From: a bacterium
GTDB lineage: Bacteria; Orphanbacterota; Orphanbacteria; Orphanbacterales; Orphanbacteraceae
Length of the DNA: 64,000 nt
Assembly (NCBI GenBank): GCA_025782575.1
Contig: JALGYY010000017.1
Span: 547,892 to 611,891 of the forward strand
Direction of reading: 5' to 3'
Every line of letters begins with the position of its first letter. Position 1 is the first letter of the stretch. Made by a program: the position numbers and the translations under genes. Below the pieces are notes generated by a model. That model was not told the DNA's origin, searched no databases, and saw only the letters and a program-made list of their open reading frames with translations. Below, piece after piece: positions 1,990 to 14,249 of the stretch.

Positions 1990-3129
1990 ATGGAGACTGG
2001 ATACATAGATATCGCAAACACGAAACATATGTTTCAGCGAGCTAGAGCTCGATTCATGGCAGATCAAAATGTGAGTGAGAGAAATAAAGAGATTGTTGGG
2101 AAATTTCTGCGTGATGCAGCGCTTGGTAAGACGATCAGAGGGCGGGCCAGGACGAAGATTGGATCCTCTAGACTGACAAACTACATAAGCCATCTCTATC
2201 ACTTGATGGGATACCTCGACAAAGATCTAGATGCTGTTACTCAGGAAGACATGGAGAAGTTCGTCGAAGCGATTGAGAACGATGAAATCCGTTCCCGCTC
2301 ACGAAGGGTAATGGGAAATCAGATTGATGTGAGTGGAGAGCCGTTGAGCTCTCGGTACAAGGTTGATGTGAAGGTCACAGTGAAGAAATTTTACAAGTGG
2401 TTATTAGGCGATTGCCGGCAATATCCTCCGCTGGTTGAGTGGATTGATACATTTTCAGAACCAAAAGATGTTCCAGCCCTCTCCGAAATGGAAGTTGATC
2501 GTCTTGTGAGCTTGGCCCGCACACCTGAACAGCGTGCGATCATTCAAGTTCTTTTTGATGGAGGGCTTCGAATAGGCGAACTCCTGAATGTCCGGCTGCA
2601 TCATGTCACTCGCAGGAGTCTTGAAGTATCTGGTGTGACTCGTCATTGCTTTGTGATTTGGATTCCATTCTCGAAGACCCTTCGAAGGGCAGTGGCTCTT
2701 CCGATGAGTAGCACCTCAAAGTGGATTCATCTTTGGCTCGAGTATCATCCGGCCAATCCGAGGATTGCAGATGATGGACGTATTGAAGCAGAGGAATCTC
2801 AAGCGCCGTTGTTTCCTGTCCCCGCGTCATATGTGAGAAGCTTTCTTGGAAAGCTCGGCCGTACGGCAATCAAGAAGAGAGTTTATCCCCATCTCCTGAG
2901 ACACAGCTCCGCCACATATTGGGCCAATAAGTTGCCGTACTTCAAATTCTGTAAACGTTTTGGTTGGACGATGACGAGCAAGATGCCCCAACGGTATATC
3001 GACAGGCAGGGTGTTGACGAACTCAGCGTGATTGAACTTCACCTAAAGGATGAAGGCAATAAGCTACACCAGGAGAAGGAAGCACTCCTTAGAGAACTCG
3101 CTTTGCTTCGCGCTGGAAAGAGGGCTTGA
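1990..3129 (+). CDS. Tyrosine recombinase/integrase of the island
   Basis: 379-residue site-specific recombinase. The N-terminal half (about 25-150) fits a SAM-like core-binding domain. The catalytic half contains the expected residues: Arg194 (GGLRIGEL), the beta-hairpin Lys229 (PFSKTLRR), the HLLRH box with His301 and Arg304, Trp326 in the sixth position (FGWTMTSKMP) and the nucleophile Tyr336 (QRYIDR). The all-present set argues that it is active. The W-TSKMP-RY-R spacing resembles recombinases common in archaea and candidate phyla rather than IntI or XerC/D. The C-terminal tail (about 345-379) is a charged coiled coil. There is no clear ribosome binding site before the ATG, so an internal start is possible. 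It probably mobilised the surrounding island. Confidence 0.9.
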   Translation: METGYIDIANTKHMFQRARARFMADQNVSERNKEIVGKFLRDAALGKTIRGRARTKIGSSRLTNYISHLYHLMGYLDKDLDAVTQEDMEKFVEAIENDEIRSRSRRVMGNQIDVSGEPLSSRYKVDVKVTVKKFYKWLLGDCRQYPPLVEWIDTFSEPKDVPALSEMEVDRLVSLARTPEQRAIIQVLFDGGLRIGELLNVRLHHVTRRSLEVSGVTRHCFVIWIPFSKTLRRAVALPMSSTSKWIHLWLEYHPANPRIADDGRIEAEESQAPLFPVPASYVRSFLGKLGRTAIKKRVYPHLLRHSSATYWANKLPYFKFCKRFGWTMTSKMPQRYIDRQGVDELSVIELHLKDEGNKLHQEKEALLRELALLRAGKRA

Positions 3130-3512: not shown

Positions 3513-6500
3513 GTGCCTCCCCATCAACTAAACCTATCATTTGGCTCTGTATTAAATAGCAATCTACTCTCAAATCACTGGTTAGATCATAGGCTACAAC
3601 TTGAGCCGGAATGGTTTGAGACGCGAGATAATGCACGTCAGGTACTTCAAGCTGTTGAAGACTTGTGGCTGAAACAGGAGTCTCGAGTATCTCTGTATGG
3701 AGATGAGCAGGGATTAGAAGTAGCATTTATTCAACCAATACTGCAATTACTCGGCTGGCATTTCAAGTACCAGACTTTTCTTGATCGGCGAGAGCCTGAC
3801 TACGCTCTCTTTGCAAGTGACGATGATCTGGGTTCAGCACTCGCTGCCGGCCGCAAATCACCAAACTTCTGGAAGCCTGCGATTATCGTTGCAGATGCAA
3901 AAGCCTGGAGTATTAGTCTTGACCGGCCTCGAAAAGTCAAGAGCAAGCGAGAATACCCGCCTCAACAAATCGAGTGGTACCTTGATCGGAGTAGGTGTGA
4001 TTTCGGAATGCTCACGAATGGTAGGTTGTGGAGGCTAGTGCCTCGTGAGCGAGAACCCTTTCAGCCTCGATTTCAGACGTATCTGCAGTTTGATCTCGGC
4101 AGTTTTCTAGAGGAGTGGACCAACCGCGATTCTGGCCCATTCACTGACAGCGACCGTCTTCTAGATGAGTTTCAGACCTTCTTCCTGTTATTTGGACAGC
4201 GCGGCTTCGTAGAGACTGACGGACGTCTGCCCATGATAGAAAGAGCCGTAAAGGGCAGCTCCGAATATCGGCTTGGTGTTAGCGACAAGCTAAAGGAGCG
4301 TGCGTTCGAAGCCCTTAGGCTGACAATCGAAGGCTTCTTGCGATTCCCCGGCAATAGCCTTGATTCAGGAACTGACCTAGAAGAGTGCAGGCGACACGCA
4401 TTCATTCTTTTGTACAGGCTCCTGTTTATTCTCTATGCGGAAGACAGGCAACTCCTGCCTTACAGACTAAATTCTCTGTATACGGAAAACCGGTCCCTCG
4501 GTCGTTTTAGAGATGATGTAGCTTGGTATCTAGATCGCACAAATGATGACGATGAAACCGGTCGCTCTACGGCCGAGCATTATGAGCACCTTCTCGCATT
4601 ATTCGATCTAGTTGATCGCGGGCATAAGAGATATGACGTGCCAGCGTATAATGGGGGCTTGTTCGACAATCACGACAATCCGTTCCTTGAAGAGAAACGT
4701 ATCTCGAACTGGCACATTGCACGGGTCATTGACAAGCTGGGTCGAACCTACGAAGAGGAAAGTCCCGAAGCAGGACTCGTCCGAGTGGATTTCCGAGATT
4801 TGACAATTCAACACCTAGGAGCAATCTACGAGGGGCTCCTCGAACTTCACCCCAAGGTCGCAACACGCCGCATGTCGGTGGTCAAAAGACGTATCAGAGG
4901 AAGGCTAGTGGAAAAGGTAATCCCTTTTGACTCACTGCCGCCGAAGGGGTTTCAAGCAACAGACCTCCAGTATTCGAAGGGTGATATATATCTCGAGACA
5001 CACAAAGGGGAGCGAAGAGCATCCGGTAGTTATTATACGCCAGACCACATTGTGAACCACATAGTTGAACAAACCCTTGGTCCGATCTGCAAGAAAATCT
5101 CTGATGATCTGATGGCGGAGATTGATGCGTTGGAGACTGGGAATGGGGGGGGGAGTGGATGCTCCAAGTTGTCTGCGCTCGAGTCCTCATATCCTGATCG
5201 TGTCCTTCAATTGCGAGTACTCGACCCGGCAATGGGCTCTGGTCACTTTCTGATTGGCGCCTGCCAGTATCTCGCTGAAGAAATCAGCACTCACCCCTGC
5301 TCGTCTGTTGACGGGCTATCTGCCACGGATGATGCCGAAACCACGTTGACGTACTGGAAGCGATTGGTCGTGGAGCGATGTCTCTTCGGTGTTGACATAA
5401 ACCCATTGGCAGTAGAGCTAGCAAAGCTTGCACTTTGGTTGGAAACAGTATCCATCAGCCAACCACTCACGTTTCTGGATCATCACCTACGAGTCGGGAA
5501 TTCACTGATTGGTGGCGCGACAAACAAGCTCGGTGTTCTACCCAACGAGGCTCCCCTTTTTGCTGACAAATTCGAGCAGCAGGTTGCCAACAAAGTCTCA
5601 ATTATCACTTCTCCACTAGTTGAGATAGAAGCGATCCCATCTGACACGGCCAAGGATCTAAAGGAAAAACGATCCTTGCTCACAAAACTCGACCGCTCAA
5701 GGAGACCGTTCATTCAGGTTGCCGACCTCTGGTGCTCATATTTCTCGTCCTCTCCAGCAAGCAGGATAACATCTGCCCAATACCAGGATGCGGTCAGGCT
5801 CATCGATAAGCCTACAAAGTTCAAACGGCTTGCTGAATCCGATTGGTTTCGCAATCACTTGCCCTCCCCGGGGCGATGGGACAGTCAATTCTTCCATTGG
5901 GAGTTTGAATTCCCCGAGGTATTCTTAGCCCCGCGTCCTGGAGACATGCGAGTCGGATTTAATGCGATTATCGGCAACCCGCCCTACGATGTCCTGTCGG
6001 AAAAGGAAACTGGCCATAATCTGACCGCTCTGATAAGTTTTGTGGACTACGAGCAGGCCTACAAACCTTCCAAGTATGGGAAAAACAACCTATATAAACT
6101 TTTTCTCTGTCAGGCAAATCGTCTTATTGCAGAAGGTGGGCGACTTGGGTTCATAGTGCCGATGTCTCTACTTGGAGACAAGCAAGCTGTCGGGCTTCGG
6201 AAGATGCTCGCCGACAGGGGAACGTTTGATGCAATTGAGACCTTCCCACAAAAGGACAACCCTAAGAAGCGAGTGTTCCCTGACGCTAAGCTGTCTACGA
6301 CCATAGTTTTCTATACTCATGGCAAGAGTAGCGGATCAGAGAGAAAGGTTTTTCGTGCGAGACGCCACCCCGCACAATTCATTATGGAAGAATCGCCCGG
6401 GCTCTCTCTCAGCGCTCGCGACATGTTTCTCTATGACCCAGAGAACCTAACTATTGTTGCTTGCCACCAGGCCAGTTGGGACATGGCCATAGAGATGATG

Positions 6501-7325
6501 GATTCTGGACGACTTTGCCGCCTCGCCGATTGCTGTGTCTCTCATCAAGGCGAAGTAAATGAAACAACTGACAGAGGCAAAGGCTTTATCTCTGACGACC
6601 CAAGAGCTGGGCCGCAAGTACTGCGCGGTTCAAATGTTTCCATGTACTTACTCCGCGCAGCCTCACAGGGAGAGCCACTGTTCCTGCTGAAGGAGCTTTT
6701 TCTCAGCATGAAAAGCCGAGGGGCAAGGGTTCAGCACACGCGAGAGCTAAGGCTTGGTTATCAGCGAAGCGCCCCGCAGAATACCTTTCGCAGAATAATC
6801 TCCGCATTGATCCCACCTGACAAGTTTTGCTTTGATACAATAAGCTATATCCCCAAATCTGAATCCAGATTGCCACTGTATTTCCTCCTTGGGTTGCTTA
6901 ACTGTAAGCTAATAGATTGGTACTTTAGACTTGGTAGTTCGAACTCGAAGGTCAATGACTACCAGTTTAAGAATCTCCCTTGCCCGATCTTTAGGAAGAC
7001 CCAGACAGAGCGGGAAACAAGACTCGCGGATCGTATATCCGTCGTTTTGGGAAGTGGCAACACGAAGAAAGCAAGGGATCTTCTCTTCCCTGAAATAGGA
7101 AAGACTCCATATAGTCCGATTATTGCGAACGTCATCGCCCAGACTGCCAAGCTCATTGAGAAATCTGAGAGGATTCGTGGGGCGGTAACACGCGCGGATA
7201 GATCACGGCTTGGGCAGGATTCGCAGCACTTCCAGGATTTTCTTGACGATACTTTTTTTCTACTAGCGGGCCTCTCGGAGACAGAATCGGAGGTTCTTGA
7301 GAGGCATTTGGGGGCCATGCTCTAG
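3513..7325 (+). CDS. Type IIG-like restriction-modification enzyme (nuclease + N6-adenine methyltransferase + specificity region)
   Basis: 1270 residues, the size of fused Eco57I/type IIL enzymes. Starts at GTG 3513 behind AGGGAC; the N-terminal NHWLDHRLQLEPEW fits the usual opening of this family. Residues about 60-170 look like a PD-(D/E)xK nuclease: Glu69, Asp96 (EPDYALF), and Asp128-Ala-Lys130 (VADAKAW). A helical connector leads to the gamma-class methyltransferase: GSYYTP (505-510), SAM motif DPAMGSG (571-577), and the catalytic NPPY tetrad (822-825), which indicates N6-adenine methylation. The C-terminal third ends in a target-recognition-like segment (LLNCKLIDWYFRLGSSNSKV, then FKNLPCP). 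Such enzymes cut and methylate alone. The unusual companion is the DAC-like gene 78 bases downstream. A BREX PglX was considered, but no other brx gene is present and a nuclease motif is. Confidence 0.88.
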   Translation: MPPHQLNLSFGSVLNSNLLSNHWLDHRLQLEPEWFETRDNARQVLQAVEDLWLKQESRVSLYGDEQGLEVAFIQPILQLLGWHFKYQTFLDRREPDYALFASDDDLGSALAAGRKSPNFWKPAIIVADAKAWSISLDRPRKVKSKREYPPQQIEWYLDRSRCDFGMLTNGRLWRLVPREREPFQPRFQTYLQFDLGSFLEEWTNRDSGPFTDSDRLLDEFQTFFLLFGQRGFVETDGRLPMIERAVKGSSEYRLGVSDKLKERAFEALRLTIEGFLRFPGNSLDSGTDLEECRRHAFILLYRLLFILYAEDRQLLPYRLNSLYTENRSLGRFRDDVAWYLDRTNDDDETGRSTAEHYEHLLALFDLVDRGHKRYDVPAYNGGLFDNHDNPFLEEKRISNWHIARVIDKLGRTYEEESPEAGLVRVDFRDLTIQHLGAIYEGLLELHPKVATRRMSVVKRRIRGRLVEKVIPFDSLPPKGFQATDLQYSKGDIYLETHKGERRASGSYYTPDHIVNHIVEQTLGPICKKISDDLMAEIDALETGNGGGSGCSKLSALESSYPDRVLQLRVLDPAMGSGHFLIGACQYLAEEISTHPCSSVDGLSATDDAETTLTYWKRLVVERCLFGVDINPLAVELAKLALWLETVSISQPLTFLDHHLRVGNSLIGGATNKLGVLPNEAPLFADKFEQQVANKVSIITSPLVEIEAIPSDTAKDLKEKRSLLTKLDRSRRPFIQVADLWCSYFSSSPASRITSAQYQDAVRLIDKPTKFKRLAESDWFRNHLPSPGRWDSQFFHWEFEFPEVFLAPRPGDMRVGFNAIIGNPPYDVLSEKETGHNLTALISFVDYEQAYKPSKYGKNNLYKLFLCQANRLIAEGGRLGFIVPMSLLGDKQAVGLRKMLADRGTFDAIETFPQKDNPKKRVFPDAKLSTTIVFYTHGKSSGSERKVFRARRHPAQFIMEESPGLSLSARDMFLYDPENLTIVACHQASWDMAIEMMDSGRLCRLADCCVSHQGEVNETTDRGKGFISDDPRAGPQVLRGSNVSMYLLRAASQGEPLFLLKELFLSMKSRGARVQHTRELRLGYQRSAPQNTFRRIISALIPPDKFCFDTISYIPKSESRLPLYFLLGLLNCKLIDWYFRLGSSNSKVNDYQFKNLPCPIFRKTQTERETRLADRISVVLGSGNTKKARDLLFPEIGKTPYSPIIANVIAQTAKLIEKSERIRGAVTRADRSRLGQDSQHFQDFLDDTFFLLAGLSETESEVLERHLGAML

Positions 7326-7403
7326 TACTGATGCGGATCTTCACCCCCTGCCTGGTGGCAAGGCGGAGAAAGTAGGCTGGGCTTGTTGGGAAAAGAGGAT
7401 TAA

Positions 7404-8582
7404 GTGGAAGAAGATCAATTCCGGCAAGTCATTGGCAGTTCGCTTGTTCCTATGCTAGGTGCAACAGTGGGAGGCAACAGCCTGACCAACCAGATATCGG
7501 GGCGAAGAGTCTCATATATTGATCCATCCCGCATTTCGGTCCGCCCCGAACCCAACACGCAATACAAAATTATTCTTGAGAGGAGTCAAAAATTCTCCAA
7601 GACCGAAAAACGCCTGGCAGGGGAGTTCATGCTGGAACTTGCAAGGATTTCGCGGTCCTCCAATGTTCACTTTAATGAGTTGCTAAAGAATCTACCACGG
7701 CGGGTTATTGCGCAGCATCTTAGTGGGGGTCAGGTCCTATTGTCAACCTTGGAGATGCTTGAAGGCTGGGCGGCGAGGACATATGAGGGGCAGCGGATCA
7801 CGGCCGCCATTGGGATTCGTAGGGATAGTAGTAATGGAAGTGTCAGTCTTGACGAGTTCTCTAGGGCTGAGTTCGCTCCCGTGGTTACAAATGGCTTCGA
7901 CACCATCTTAGTACTTGGATCAAACGGCCGGATAGATTCCATTCAACAACTGGATGATGCTTCAGAAGCTGGCTTTGGACCATACCGGTTGGCCCAAATC
8001 GCCTCATGGACTGCCACGACAGGGCGTTGCTGTGCTGTGCTAAATCGGCATGGTGAAATCCTTTTGTTCCACGGCGGGGATTTGCGATTTGCCAAGCGAG
8101 CGGGCTCCTGGTTGCACTACACTCATGAAGTGGTTGTGCGCCGAATGTCGCCACCGAATAGGACAGATCTACGCCGTGCTCTGTATGACAGTTTTTTGGA
8201 CGTGTCATTCGCACGTACTGGAGGTTGTATTGGCGTATTATTGTCGAATTCCAGGATCAGTAATTATGCAAGCGCCTCAGATCGTCTTGGCATTGGCGCG
8301 ACCGTGAAAAGCCGCCTCTTCGACGAAGCGATCGGAGCCAATTTCCAAACCCTCGACAGACGATTTAGGCAGGAACTTCTTGCTCTCGATGGGGCCATGA
8401 TTCTTGATCACAGAGGAGGCGTCCTGGCCGTTGGAGCGATCGTAGAGATCCAGGCCGGAAGTGCTGGTGGTGGACGATTGGCCGCAGCTCAAAGACTCAG
8501 CGAAGGAGGTCTTGGAATCAAAATATCTGAGGATGGAGGTATCAAGGGATTTCGAGATCGTTCGGAAGTATTTGTCGTTTAG
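7404..8582 (+). CDS. DisA/diadenylate-cyclase-fold protein with degenerate active site, partner of the RM enzyme
   Basis: 392 residues from GTG 7404 (ribosome site AAAGAGG). The C-terminal ~135 residues resemble the DAC fold of DisA/CdaA: an entry helix ALYDSFLDVSFARTGGCIGV (260-279), the DGA motif at 329-331 (LALDGAMILDHRGGVLAVGA), and a region matching TRHRAA...SE...VSEETG but reading GGGRLAAAQRLSE (355-367), then KISEDGGI (373-380). In active cyclases the second motif is T-R-H-R; here only the last Arg (358) survives, so cyclic-di-AMP synthesis is doubtful. A nucleotide-sensing role, as proposed for DAC-derived sensor domains in conflict systems, is the alternative. Residues 1-250 look like a second mixed alpha/beta domain I cannot name. 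The tandem layout suggests co-transcription with the RM gene. Confidence 0.6.
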   Translation: MEEDQFRQVIGSSLVPMLGATVGGNSLTNQISGRRVSYIDPSRISVRPEPNTQYKIILERSQKFSKTEKRLAGEFMLELARISRSSNVHFNELLKNLPRRVIAQHLSGGQVLLSTLEMLEGWAARTYEGQRITAAIGIRRDSSNGSVSLDEFSRAEFAPVVTNGFDTILVLGSNGRIDSIQQLDDASEAGFGPYRLAQIASWTATTGRCCAVLNRHGEILLFHGGDLRFAKRAGSWLHYTHEVVVRRMSPPNRTDLRRALYDSFLDVSFARTGGCIGVLLSNSRISNYASASDRLGIGATVKSRLFDEAIGANFQTLDRRFRQELLALDGAMILDHRGGVLAVGAIVEIQAGSAGGGRLAAAQRLSEGGLGIKISEDGGIKGFRDRSEVFVV

Positions 8583-9197: not shown

Positions 9198-12100
9198 TCA
9201 CCTCACGAGCACCACTCTCTTCGTCTCCGAGAATACTCCGGCGTCCATCTTCAGGAAGTAGATCCCCGAGGCGAGACGATCCAGGCTGGAAGCGCTGAGA
9301 CTTCGCACATGCGTTCCGGGTCCGGCAGAACCGCTCATGAGTGTCGCCACCCGTCGCCCGCCTATGTTGTAGAGTTCGACAGACACGTCACCACCTGAAC
9401 GTGGCACATCGAATGCGATTTCGATCCCGCGACTGACTCTTATCGGCGCCGGTCCAATGATGCGAAGCGCAAAACGGGCGGGGTACGAACCTGAAGCGGT
9501 TGCTGAAACAATCTGGCTGATCGCTTCGACAGAACCGTCAGGCAGGGTCACCTCGATCCTGTACCAATACTCGATTTCGGGAATCACACCCTCGTCGATC
9601 CACGAAAATGTATGGGGATGGGAAGGAGCATTGTTAGAAATCAAATCAGGATTCACCTGATCGAACTGTCCCGATTCAACAGCTCTCAAGATATTGAACC
9701 CGACATACTCATCGCTTGAGCTGACAATCCATCGGACCTCGATCTGTTCTTTTCCTGCTATGGCGTTCAGACCCTGTAAACCACTCACGGCCGTTGAAAA
9801 CGTGTCGCCCACACTGATACCATTAACAATCAGATAATCCTCGACTTCGCCGAATAGCGCACCCCCCTTCTCTTCGTTGTTGGCGCGATTTGTTTCATCG
9901 GCCTCTTTGACACCGAGGTCCAGCGTCTCTGACTCATCTTCCCCGTACGCGAGCCGGAACCGCATGCTGAACCGAGGGGATATCTGCGGAGGTGCCTGGA
10001 CGGAATAGTTGATCGTCTCTGTCTCCTTGCCGAACGAATCGGTGAACGATTCGCTATCCTCATGCACGCCGTTCCCATTCTCATCATCGAATGTTTCACC
10101 GAGGGTATAGAATCCATCCGGCCCCCAGTTGACCGGATTCCGAACATCGTCAATGATTTTCTCTGCCGGTTCCCAGATGCTGTTCCCATTCCAATCCGCC
10201 CAGCCGGACAAGAACAACCGGTGATCGAATCCCGGTCCGCCTTCTCCATACCGCGGCATGAGATCCCCCTCATCCTCCGGGTCGCTGACCGACGATTCGT
10301 CATCACCCGGCTCAATGATGAATCCTCCATACGCGCCGATAGAGGCAGTTGCTGTCACTTCGATGTCTATCGTAGACCCCGCAGTAATCGGTGGAATGTA
10401 GACACCGTTGTCTTTGCGGTCCGTCTGCTCGGGGAAGAGATTGGGATCCCCATCGGCGTCTGATCCGGGCGGGTTTCGATCATTCGCGTCAATCTCCCTG
10501 GTTGCACCCCCTTGTGTATCATCGTCACTGCCGAGCCACTCCTTCGTAGCCAGAAGATGGCGCGCCCCATCGTTCGCTAAGCACGTAGGGTAGGTGTTCG
10601 GGAGAGGGGCTATCCCATCACTACAGGAAGCGTCAGCCGCATCGCCAAAATCCGTACCAATCAGATAGTCCTCCACCTCGCCGTAACGCGCCGCCCCATA
10701 CATGTATCCACGCTTCTGCCCGAAGGTCTGAATATCGTTTGGAGCTACATTCTCTTTACGAAGCGAACGGAGCGACCGGAAATGAGGGCGGGGATCATTT
10801 CTTCCCACATTCTCCCCATAGTCGAGGCGTGCACGAGCCCATAGCTTTCCCTTCCCAACTGTACCGACCGGAATTGCGCTCTCGAATTCTGCACTGTTGC
10901 CATCCAGGCCGCTGAATAACTGGACTGTTGTTGCCCCACCCTCTCCCGGATCCACAATTTCCCAGAAGGTCACACCGTCGCCCCTGGGGTTTATCTGAAG
11001 ACCGTCGATCACATGCTCCTTGTTCTCTTCTTTCCAGACTCCGTCCGTATCCCAGTCGATCCATAGATTTACCCAGAGTGATTTGTCCTTGTCAGCGGCG
11101 TAACGCCTGTTTTCCACGTCAAAGACACCGATTGAAAACTGCACTTTGCCCGGAGTTCCCGTCTTGTATGTAAGCGGAAAGAGAACGAAACCATCATCCC
11201 TGCCGTCACGGTTATGAAACTTGCCTGGTACGCGATTGGTCTTTCCGTCCACATCGACCCGGGCATCCCCCCCGCTCGTTTCATGCTCGGCGTTATGTTC
11301 CGCCGTTACCGATTCCAGATTCCCCTTGTTCAGACGACCGAACCACTCGAGAGCACTGTTCTGATGGCGAGCTCCGTTCTCGCTCAGTTTTGTCGGTCCG
11401 ATATCTGCATCACCATAGTCAGGCACGACAACTTGATAGACAAAGTCGTCAAATGTAACACCCGATACCTTCCCCGTTCGCATCTCCGCGGTTGTTAGTA
11501 CCAGATTGAAGAACGGCTTGTGTTTTTCCCCGGGAGCCCCGCGCACTTTGAGGCTGAGTGTCCGTGGCTTGCCATTCTTGTAGATATCCTTTCGTTCGAT
11601 GGAGAATGTTGTCATGTACTGGCCCCGATTGTCAACGCGAGTTCCGACAGCCACAATGCCGAGCGTCGGGTCCTCCTCGACAATCTTCTTGTCTGTATCA
11701 TCGATTGAGCCGTCCGACTTGTTGTGCACACCTCGCTCGATTCGATTGCTTGAGCGGACCCCTTTATAGGTGGAAACCTCGACTCCCGTCGGGAGGTTAT
11801 CCCCCGAATCGGAAAGCTTCACTCCATCGACGTAAACATCAGCGAGTTTCTCGCTGGTGGCGATTTCGAAACCGTACCACTTCGTATTTGAATCGGTGAT
11901 AATCTTGAGGCTCTTGAACGTAGCGTCATCTCCCGTGGCAGGCCGGCCGTGCTGGGCGGAGAGCCCGCCATTGGCAACTGAGAGTATCGCCTTCCATACG
12001 TGGATACGGCCGTAACCGAAACGATCGTCCGGACCGTCGCCCGCATTGTTGTTCAAACGAGGTGCATTGGGGGAGGAGGTCCCCAGATCATCGGCAGTCC

Positions 12101-14249
12101 CCTTGATCCACTCAACCACCTGGAGACGGCGTTTCCGAAGGGCGTCCCCGGCAGCGGGAACACCGCGCAGCCACTCGTCGAGATAGATCAACTCGCCAGC
12201 CAGGCCGGCTACCTGAGGGGCAGCCCAGGAACTCCCCCCGCCCGTGGCTCGCATCTTGCCCCCCCGCTTTACTACGGTCATACGCAACCCACCATTGGCA
12301 CAGACCGCAATCCTCTCTCCCTTGGAGGATTTGTCCCAAACCTGTTCGGGCCCGAGCGGTCCGTCGCCCGAGGCATAATAGTCGGGGATATCGGTAGCCG
12401 CGACGTTCATCAAAAGGGGGTAAACAGGGGTGACCGCCCCTCGCTTGTCCGTGAGCGCCTGAGGTTCTTGTTCCCCGGACAGAAAACTAGGGGAGTTGCC
12501 GCCCGCCAGAATAAGGATCTGGCCCTGCTCCATCAGTTTCTTGAATCGGGGAACATAGTCCTTTGACTCATCTTTTGCGGTCGTATGATCGACATGCTTA
12601 CCAAAAGTTGACGATATGTTGATCACCTTGATCTTCTTGTGACGGGTGATCATATCCCGCAAGGCTTCCATGTAACTCTTCTGTCCCCTTGATTTGTAGG
12701 GAATAACTCTCAAATTCGGCCCCGTCCCAAGAATCTGCGCTCCATTGCCCGCAGCGAGGAGAGCAACATTGGTTCCATGAGCCCTCTTCTTTTTCTCGTC
12801 TTTCAGGTCCTCGATCGGCTTTCTGTCCTCATTCTTCTTTGGAGGACCTTTGGTTATCTTCCCCCCCCTCGCCTCGATTCCGTGAAAGGAATGCCCGTCA
12901 CCGTCCGTCGAACCGAGACGACTGAGAGGGAGATCGTTTAAGGTTCTGTTTTCCGCTGCGGTCGCCTTGCCGTTACCAAATCCCGCATCGAGAATGGCCA
13001 GTATCGGAATGGTCGGTTCCACTTCCCCGGCGTGCGTGACGTTTGTAATGATGTAATCTCTAAGTCGGTGACCGGCAAATGTCTGATAAAAGAAGTGGCG
13101 CCAGATGAGATCAAGCTCATCAACATGAACACTGCCCGACACGGTTCCATCATGGTCAAAGCCCCCTTTGTCGCTGTCAAATCCGTCGTTGGTCGTACCC
13201 AGGCCATATCTCGGGTACGCTCCGCCGGAGATCAGACGTTGAGGCAACTTCTCCGTTGTCGTTGCATTATTCTCCGCCAGGTGTGATACCGATGCGTAGG
13301 TCACCGCCGGATCCGCCTCCAGAATGGGCGAAAGCAGAACCGGCGTCTCCGGCCTCCGGTATGTGTCGGTAATGACGGAAAGCAAAGGAGGGGAGAGAGT
13401 AAGATCCTGAAAGTAACCGACCGGCACGAGCTGGCTGGTCTCGAGCAGCTGCTGAACCACCGCTTCAGAAGTGAGTGTGTCGAAACCAATCTCAAGGAAG
13501 CTCAGGTCATAGAGGAGTCCACCAGCGGGGTCGACTACGGTCGATGTGTCATCCGGATTGAACTCGCCTCCCAGCCCGATAGTGGTTGCATCGTAGTTCA
13601 CCATGGTCCCGGAGAACGAAATGCTGTCGTTCACGATTCCCACAAGAGTGTTCACACTGAGGGGAGCTGAGATCGAGGCGGTCGCCGACGGCGGGAGTCC
13701 GGATAAGACAAAGCTTCCCGAGAGGTCGGCAGCCGACAAAGCGCCGCTGGACGTCAGAAAGACCTGAAAAGTATTGATCGAGGGGATCGCACCGTCGAGT
13801 GTGATTGTGATCTGTGGCAAAAGAGTCCTGATCACTGAATAATCGAGTGGCTGAATTCCCGCGTTCCCGACCACTTCCATGGAGTTCACATAGCCGGGAT
13901 CCGCAGTGACCGTGAGAATCGGACCTATGACGCTTCCAAGCGAATCCACTGTTAGTTCCACTGCACCGGTCACCGCCCCTACCGGCACCAGGGCGACGAT
14001 GACATTGTGCGATGTCGGGCGAAGGAGCTCGCAAGGTTGTCCGCCGACAGAGACCAGGTTTTTCGTGGGCGTGACCGAAAATCCGCTCCCTTCAATAACA
14101 AAGGGCATGCCGGGCCCGGCCGAAAGTGGGGTGACCTGGTTGATAATTGGCGCTGCGGCTACGTTGGAAGCAAGATGGCACGAAATCAATGCCAAAGCAA
14201 TCAAGATTGCGGATGTAGTACGCGGCACATAGCATTGAAACGATTGCAC
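9198..14249 (-). CDS. Giant secreted subtilisin-like protease with IPT, GEVED and FlgD/T9SS-like C-terminal domains
   Basis: 1683 residues from GTG 14249 behind GAGGAGG. Signal peptide about 1-33. An IPT/TIG-type Ig domain follows (about 34-115; VTPLSAGPGMPFVIEGSGF). The S8 catalytic set is visible: Asp421 (AILDAGFG), His491 (HGTNVALLAAGNG), Asn585 (LAGGNS) and Ser674 in GGSSWAAPQVAG. Downstream are repeated beta modules with GEVEDY signatures (ARYGEVEDYLIG and LFGEVEDYLIV) and Asp-rich loops suggesting calcium (DWDTDGVW, DWNGNSIWEP), then a fibronectin-like segment. The C-terminal ~80 residues (VELYNIGGRRVATLMSG ... LASGIYFLKMD) form a FlgD/T9SS-like sorting sandwich. It is likely exported and surface-bound or released; substrate unknown. 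It lies between the two copies of the tRNA-type promoter. Confidence 0.85.
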   Translation of the reverse strand: MQSFQCYVPRTTSAILIALALISCHLASNVAAAPIINQVTPLSAGPGMPFVIEGSGFSVTPTKNLVSVGGQPCELLRPTSHNVIVALVPVGAVTGAVELTVDSLGSVIGPILTVTADPGYVNSMEVVGNAGIQPLDYSVIRTLLPQITITLDGAIPSINTFQVFLTSSGALSAADLSGSFVLSGLPPSATASISAPLSVNTLVGIVNDSISFSGTMVNYDATTIGLGGEFNPDDTSTVVDPAGGLLYDLSFLEIGFDTLTSEAVVQQLLETSQLVPVGYFQDLTLSPPLLSVITDTYRRPETPVLLSPILEADPAVTYASVSHLAENNATTTEKLPQRLISGGAYPRYGLGTTNDGFDSDKGGFDHDGTVSGSVHVDELDLIWRHFFYQTFAGHRLRDYIITNVTHAGEVEPTIPILAILDAGFGNGKATAAENRTLNDLPLSRLGSTDGDGHSFHGIEARGGKITKGPPKKNEDRKPIEDLKDEKKKRAHGTNVALLAAGNGAQILGTGPNLRVIPYKSRGQKSYMEALRDMITRHKKIKVINISSTFGKHVDHTTAKDESKDYVPRFKKLMEQGQILILAGGNSPSFLSGEQEPQALTDKRGAVTPVYPLLMNVAATDIPDYYASGDGPLGPEQVWDKSSKGERIAVCANGGLRMTVVKRGGKMRATGGGSSWAAPQVAGLAGELIYLDEWLRGVPAAGDALRKRRLQVVEWIKGTADDLGTSSPNAPRLNNNAGDGPDDRFGYGRIHVWKAILSVANGGLSAQHGRPATGDDATFKSLKIITDSNTKWYGFEIATSEKLADVYVDGVKLSDSGDNLPTGVEVSTYKGVRSSNRIERGVHNKSDGSIDDTDKKIVEEDPTLGIVAVGTRVDNRGQYMTTFSIERKDIYKNGKPRTLSLKVRGAPGEKHKPFFNLVLTTAEMRTGKVSGVTFDDFVYQVVVPDYGDADIGPTKLSENGARHQNSALEWFGRLNKGNLESVTAEHNAEHETSGGDARVDVDGKTNRVPGKFHNRDGRDDGFVLFPLTYKTGTPGKVQFSIGVFDVENRRYAADKDKSLWVNLWIDWDTDGVWKEENKEHVIDGLQINPRGDGVTFWEIVDPGEGGATTVQLFSGLDGNSAEFESAIPVGTVGKGKLWARARLDYGENVGRNDPRPHFRSLRSLRKENVAPNDIQTFGQKRGYMYGAARYGEVEDYLIGTDFGDAADASCSDGIAPLPNTYPTCLANDGARHLLATKEWLGSDDDTQGGATREIDANDRNPPGSDADGDPNLFPEQTDRKDNGVYIPPITAGSTIDIEVTATASIGAYGGFIIEPGDDESSVSDPEDEGDLMPRYGEGGPGFDHRLFLSGWADWNGNSIWEPAEKIIDDVRNPVNWGPDGFYTLGETFDDENGNGVHEDSESFTDSFGKETETINYSVQAPPQISPRFSMRFRLAYGEDESETLDLGVKEADETNRANNEEKGGALFGEVEDYLIVNGISVGDTFSTAVSGLQGLNAIAGKEQIEVRWIVSSSDEYVGFNILRAVESGQFDQVNPDLISNNAPSHPHTFSWIDEGVIPEIEYWYRIEVTLPDGSVEAISQIVSATASGSYPARFALRIIGPAPIRVSRGIEIAFDVPRSGGDVSVELYNIGGRRVATLMSGSAGPGTHVRSLSASSLDRLASGIYFLKMDAGVFSETKRVVLVR

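Follow-up and report, generated by a model that had tools for sequence, protein, structure and literature searches.

Restriction-modification is generally viewed as self-contained, without control by a small-molecule signal. Type IIG enzymes of the Eco57I kind, such as a homologue from Campylobacter jejuni (L105), carry a PD-(D/E)xK nuclease and an N6-methyltransferase in the same single chain. In type I (hsd) operons an additional gene can be inserted between hsdS and hsdR, the position known from PrrC/RloC-like genes, in which the insert is an anticodon nuclease. Catalysis by diadenylate cyclases (DAC) requires a head-to-head pair (PMC8573169), and the change of RHR to AAA in DacA of M. tuberculosis abolished both ATP binding and c-di-AMP synthesis (PMC3328451). 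DefensePredictor validated DS-2, which consists of a phospholipase, a CD-NTase and, as its third gene, a DAC protein, in phage defence; protection depends on the predicted catalytic residues of this third gene, and 15 of 30 homologues of this DAC adjoin CBASS (PMC13092281). An earlier bioinformatic link of dac genes with CBASS was made by Galperin 2023, as cited in PMC13092281.

The window, by which we mean the whole stretch of 64,000 nucleotides that was analysed, encodes on its forward strand an intact single-chain Eco57I/type IIG-like restriction-modification enzyme of 1270 aa (3513-7325; Pfam Eco57I, E=7.5e-26; no internal stop). Both this ORF and the one behind it (7404-8582) start with GTG. 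The nuclease core E65...D96...DAK130...Q152 (3705-3968) has PD at residues 95-96 and D128-A-K130, and the residues E65, E69, P95, D96, K130 and Q152 are unchanged across five distant homologues (haloarchaeal, Bradyrhizobium, Campylobacter), so the nuclease motif is real. The SAM-binding motif DPAMGSG (residues 571-577; 5223-5243) lies within a PF02384 match, and the amino-methyltransferase motif NPPY (residues 822-825; 5976-5987) within a PF07669 match to residues 623-911, while a TaqI_C specificity domain is matched weakly (Pfam, E=0.014). With an N-terminal PD-(D/E)xK nuclease and an N6 methyltransferase in one chain, the protein has the architecture of a type IIG (Eco57I) enzyme. The earlier note had located both ORFs, the motifs D96, DAK130, DPAMGSG and NPPY and the 78-base gap between the genes correctly.

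The best PADLOC model for the enzyme was DrmMI (5e-103), and REase_MTase_IIG reached 3e-50. We considered class 1 DISARM and rejected it: drmA, drmB, drmC and drmD are absent beside 3513-7325, and the DrmMI match does not discriminate, because REase_MTase_IIG models match the enzyme as well. Since no other DISARM gene is present, it is best named a solitary type IIG-like enzyme. The Eco57I-kind homologues that we examined, including that of C. jejuni, had no DAC-like neighbour, whereas the enzyme in the window has one. The C. jejuni homologue is on a "plasmid" record (pCJ41K-01) which carries ftsA, pta-ackA, flgH and ispG and looks like a chromosomal fragment.

This neighbour (7404-8582, forward strand) is a protein of 392 aa. 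Pfam DAC (PF02457) stayed below threshold on its sequence alone (E=0.003, 17.6 bits against a cut-off of 27) and at E<=1 matched 14 of 59 relatives, with a best value of 3.4e-6. An AlphaFold2 model, built with an alignment of 53 sequences, had pLDDT 94.4 and pTM 0.91, and all 50 of the 50 PDB matches listed by Foldseek were CdaA/DacA/DisA/CdaM/DacM-type chains (probability 1.00), which agrees with the DAC fold that had been proposed from the sequence. As modelled, the DAC fold of the C-terminal half (residues 249-392; 8148-8579) is firm; this half resembled CdaA/DisA in Foldseek and gave a profile match to canonical CdaA (E=3.5e-4). Other searches gave nothing of use: phmmer against PDB with the single sequence returned mainly artificial beta-trefoils, which were put down to chance similarity of Gly-rich sequence; BID, which came up at E=0.15 in a profile search of PDB, was also dismissed; and the protein had no match in a BFVD fold search.

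The N-terminal half (residues about 109-248; 7728-8147) is also DAC-like, with conserved Y127-E128-G129, P193 and W236 and without DGA or RHR. Residues 1-252 modelled alone had pLDDT 91.8, and the top 7 structure matches of this model were all DAC (CdaM/DacM/CdaA; probability 1.00, E 3.5e-4, TM about 0.5), with nothing else close. The order of helices and strands agrees closely between the two halves in the models; an internal duplication was undetectable when the N and C halves were compared by sequence profile. From these models the protein looks like a tandem DAC, with two DAC folds per chain. It shares the C-half fold, DGA and S-x-[DE] with canonical CdaA, DisA and CdaM, but differs from them in the two DAC-like halves, in the sub-cut-off Pfam match and in the absence of the RHR triad, and it has neither the TM part of CdaA nor the HhH part of DisA.

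Conservation was counted in 85 aligned family sequences from many phyla. In the DGA motif (residues 329-331; 8388-8396), D329 and G330 were found in 85/85 and A331 in 82/85. The sequence GGGR (residues 355-358; 8466-8477) stands at the place of the RHR loop, with G356 and R358 in 84/85 and G357 in 81/85, and S-E-D (residues 375-377; 8526-8534) is the counterpart of canonical S-E-E, with S375 and D377 each in 84/85. Canonical cyclases, including the host's own CdaA, have DGA, GTRHRAA and SEE. Of the two catalytic motifs of diadenylate cyclases, DGA and RHR, this family keeps DGA and has G-G-R-L-A in place of RHR. Profile alignment put GGR-LA over GTR-HR, with R358 on the first Arg of G-T-R-H-R (the register is uncertain); by this alignment one Arg of RHR may be kept in the family, while its His and one Arg are gone family-wide in whichever register applies. 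Decay of the single gene in the window is excluded by the family-wide conservation of G-G-R. The word "degenerate", which the earlier note had used, is thus misleading, since the replaced loop is a conserved signature of 85 relatives; the described replacement of T-R-H-R by G-G-G-R is right in the place of GGGR and in the altered site, and has to be corrected in that the profile places R358 on the first Arg and not on the last.

A genome scan with the single 392-aa sequence gave no match, and relatives emerged with an alignment of five members. Plasmid and genome scans then gave relatives in Proteobacteria, Verrucomicrobia, Planctomycetes, Bacteroidetes, Firmicutes, Cyanobacteria and others. 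Scans of viral contigs found no relative, the sole "phage" match (MT837587) being an unverified fecal scaffold. Genes at the relatives' loci were identified by Pfam or PADLOC where these are cited, and otherwise by sequence inspection and clustering.

Five of 45 non-clostridial relatives lie inside other restriction operons, of type I or type III, with a spacing of -4 to +32 bp. Two have the order hsdS-DAC-hsdR with a 4-bp overlap with hsdS (L019, L026), one has hsdM-hsdS-DAC-(AlbA_2 gene)-hsdR (L014), one has the DAC gene between two hsdM-like genes (L013), and one is a type III operon of the order mod-DAC-res (N6/N4 methylase, DAC, ResIII) with a 4-bp overlap (L016). As with PrrC/RloC-like insertions, L014, L019 and L026 have an extra gene inside a type I operon, but here the insert is DAC-like. 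At L014:11266-12900 an AlbA_2/HATPase_c_4 gene shares the place between hsdS and hsdR with the DAC-like gene, and at L019:11271-14696 HsdR is divided between two ORFs of 649 and 439 aa and is either broken or mis-assembled. In another member (L077:2507-4342) a Schlafen AlbA_2 domain is fused at the N terminus (E=2.9e-7), which hints, within a single chain, at effector partners. The link with restriction therefore stands in a broad sense, with these five relatives and the window; the recurrence with type IIG enzymes, on which the earlier note had made its proposal depend, does not, because tblastn (E<=1e-3), run on the family's remaining fetched loci with flanks of up to 10 kb, found no relative of the window's Eco57I enzyme.

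Ten of the 45 non-clostridial relatives adjoin CBASS (L002, L009, L018, L021, L023, L024, L025, L027, L030, L031). In L024 and L025 a single strand carries Cap15-patatin-CD-NTase-DAC, and 30-31 bp separate the CD-NTase and DAC genes; at most other CBASS-linked loci the DAC gene is set apart from the CBASS genes by strand. This link and the second DAC-like domain were both missing from the earlier note. Patatin and CD-NTase neighbours are present beside several relatives and absent in the window, where the neighbouring genes that we inspected included no CD-NTase or Cap effector. In a PADLOC comparison at equal sample size, genes within 2.5 kb matched models of type I methylase/nuclease, E1-E2 and oligonucleotide cyclase in 4 members each, and beyond 5.5 kb the top families matched 1 member each, a near/far control that is coarse, with random samples and only top families listed. 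Explaining the 6 restriction rows took 6 changes on the tree, and the 10 CBASS rows likewise took 6; hsd-linked and CBASS-linked members were intermixed within one clade. On this tree, restriction and CBASS contexts arose repeatedly.

In DS-2, as at some loci of this family, patatin/CD-NTase CBASS genes are accompanied by a further gene for a DAC-type protein. L018, L024, L025 and L027 carry homologues of the first two DS-2 genes with an adjoining family member, and L023 carries homologues of all three DS-2 genes together with a family member. A family member used as query found nothing in E. coli DNA; a DS-2-like locus was found there through its CBASS genes (L087), which we take to be DS-2 by annotation and gene order. 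Its third protein has 581 aa, the Pfam N-terminal domains DACNG and DACNH, and the motif DGT...GSRYNS, in which RHR is likewise absent, whereas our family has DGA/GGR and a DAC-like N half. In strain 361 this operon is directly followed by a second CBASS operon, of the DncV type (L087:5929-13715). The model DS2_3_antiphage (NF053872) matched 27 of 59 family members weakly (best E 1.5e-4) and did not match the window protein, and at E<=1 (Pfam) neither DACNG nor DACNH appeared for the window protein or in the matches listed for its relatives. DS-2 as described is not linked with restriction enzymes (PMC13092281), and, compared with the CBASS-associated DAC families of Galperin 2023 as far as these are described in the paper that cites them, a location within hsd and type III operons is an additional point. 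The general idea of DAC genes beside CBASS is thus already known, and the earlier proposal of an undescribed defence system has to be narrowed: there were earlier reports of a DAC beside CBASS, and DS-2, whose DAC is a distant relative, had been validated (PMC13092281), and what is added here is a distinct, divergent family, its apparent tandem architecture in the models and its embedding in restriction operons.

The fold, the conserved residues and the repeated placement in unrelated defence operons were established in this analysis, and the family is probably a divergent, defence-associated component of bacterial immunity that is portable and serves in signalling or sensing. Our leading reading, still a tentative one, is that the 392-aa protein would act as a nucleotide-binding switch for a co-encoded effector. 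The N-terminal DAC copy seems to be without catalytic motifs, and the C-terminal copy appears to keep D329 and D377 (acidic/metal-type), one Arg and a serine. The C-terminal pocket would bind a nucleotide whose level or form would shift upon infection; because the host genome encodes a separate canonical CdaA, c-di-AMP is probably available as ligand. The protein would then license or regulate, perhaps by direct action, the adjoining effector, which would be the type IIG enzyme in the window and HsdR/HsdM, type III Res or CBASS in relatives.

It is possible, though doubtful, that the protein is instead an altered but active cyclase, which would make a nucleotide messenger (c-di-AMP through dimers of C halves, or an unusual product from the differing halves) that activates or modulates its neighbour. 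The near-invariance of D329, R358, S375 and D377 goes beyond the needs of a mere scaffold, and the tandem chain could supply the head-to-head pair needed for DAC catalysis (PMC8573169). But the N half has no equivalent of DGA or RHR, which leaves one apparently complete site per chain. In addition, restriction enzymes of types I, III and IIG are not known to us to contain a dinucleotide receptor, which also speaks against a messenger. An ordinary cyclase is disfavoured because the whole family has lost the His and one Arg of RHR, and the RHR to AAA change kills ATP binding and activity of DacA (PMC3328451). Loss of RHR does not prove loss of function, since the DS-2-type third protein has no RHR and DS-2 defence still needs the predicted catalytic residues (PMC13092281).

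The preferred switch reading supposes that the pair in the window works as one system, and the two genes may be independent, as their adjacency is a single Eco57I case with a 78-bp gap. The spacer (7326-7403) has a likely ribosome-binding site, AGAGGA, at 7394-7399, and no promoter- or terminator-like site was found in it on the forward strand. The pair is flanked upstream by a tyrosine recombinase (1990-3129, forward strand; Pfam Phage_integrase, E=8.7e-8), which is missing from six related genomes, and downstream by a large secreted protein, and GC is 48-52% over the first 10 kb of the window versus mostly 55-60% further on. The recombinase and the low GC indicate that the segment was probably acquired or is mobile. 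The secreted protein (9198-14249, opposite strand) has 1683 aa and, by eye, is subtilisin-like with a C-terminal sorting-type tail. A region that begins upstream of the window and overlaps its start (L096; contig C2, 530000-549900) has genes which, by eye, resemble a TcmP/Gp37-Gp68-type pair, a gene for a HerA-like ATPase and one for a RadC-like protein, and this gene content suggests a larger acquired island. That the DAC-like gene stands alone, in defence or regulation, and merely shares such a segment with a solitary type IIG enzyme is, in our judgement, rather unlikely. Such a view fits the acquired segment, the lack of a second Eco57I-linked case among the fetched loci, the often solitary state of Eco57I homologues and the relatives which stand alone or by other defence-type genes (directly after a SLATT_5 2TM effector gene at L011:9082-9837, directly after a DUF6414 gene at L007:3682-4716, and next to HicA at L020). 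However, the two genes share a strand across a short gap with no terminator found in it, and the embedding of relatives in other restriction operons, three times with 4-bp overlaps, is hard to explain for a passenger.

Thirty-nine clostridial relatives (clostridial loci, L039-L085) are at conserved chromosomal positions and appear to be inherited vertically. Most of them are downstream of an apparent rnc-smc-ftsY (RNase III/SMC/FtsY) order and a sporulation-type sigma factor, these names being inferred from sequence, size and gene order, and the neighbourhoods suggest a non-defence role. Because many members (the 39 clostridial loci, Hymenobacter and others) have no recognised defence neighbours, the family has other roles too. 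That it is by origin a chromosomal checkpoint protein for DNA or cell state, like DisA, and was recruited to defence in some lineages only, would suit these positions by RNase III/SMC/FtsY-like genes but is very improbable, as the restriction- and CBASS-linked members, the window protein included, form the more diverse and taxonomically scattered part of the tree.

A DAC-like gene which recurs in operons of types I and III, its frame overlapping or almost touching those of its neighbours, is paired with a type IIG enzyme here and stands beside CBASS elsewhere, would connect both worlds. A possible origin of some DAC-associated "probable sensor domains" is suggested by the N half, which has the look of a second, degenerate cyclase fold. 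We regard it as an attractive but quite doubtful generalisation that the single-chain tandem DAC, a head-to-head pair in one polypeptide, is a portable module which joins a nucleotide signal to several restriction-modification types and to CBASS, so that some restriction may be under second-messenger control.
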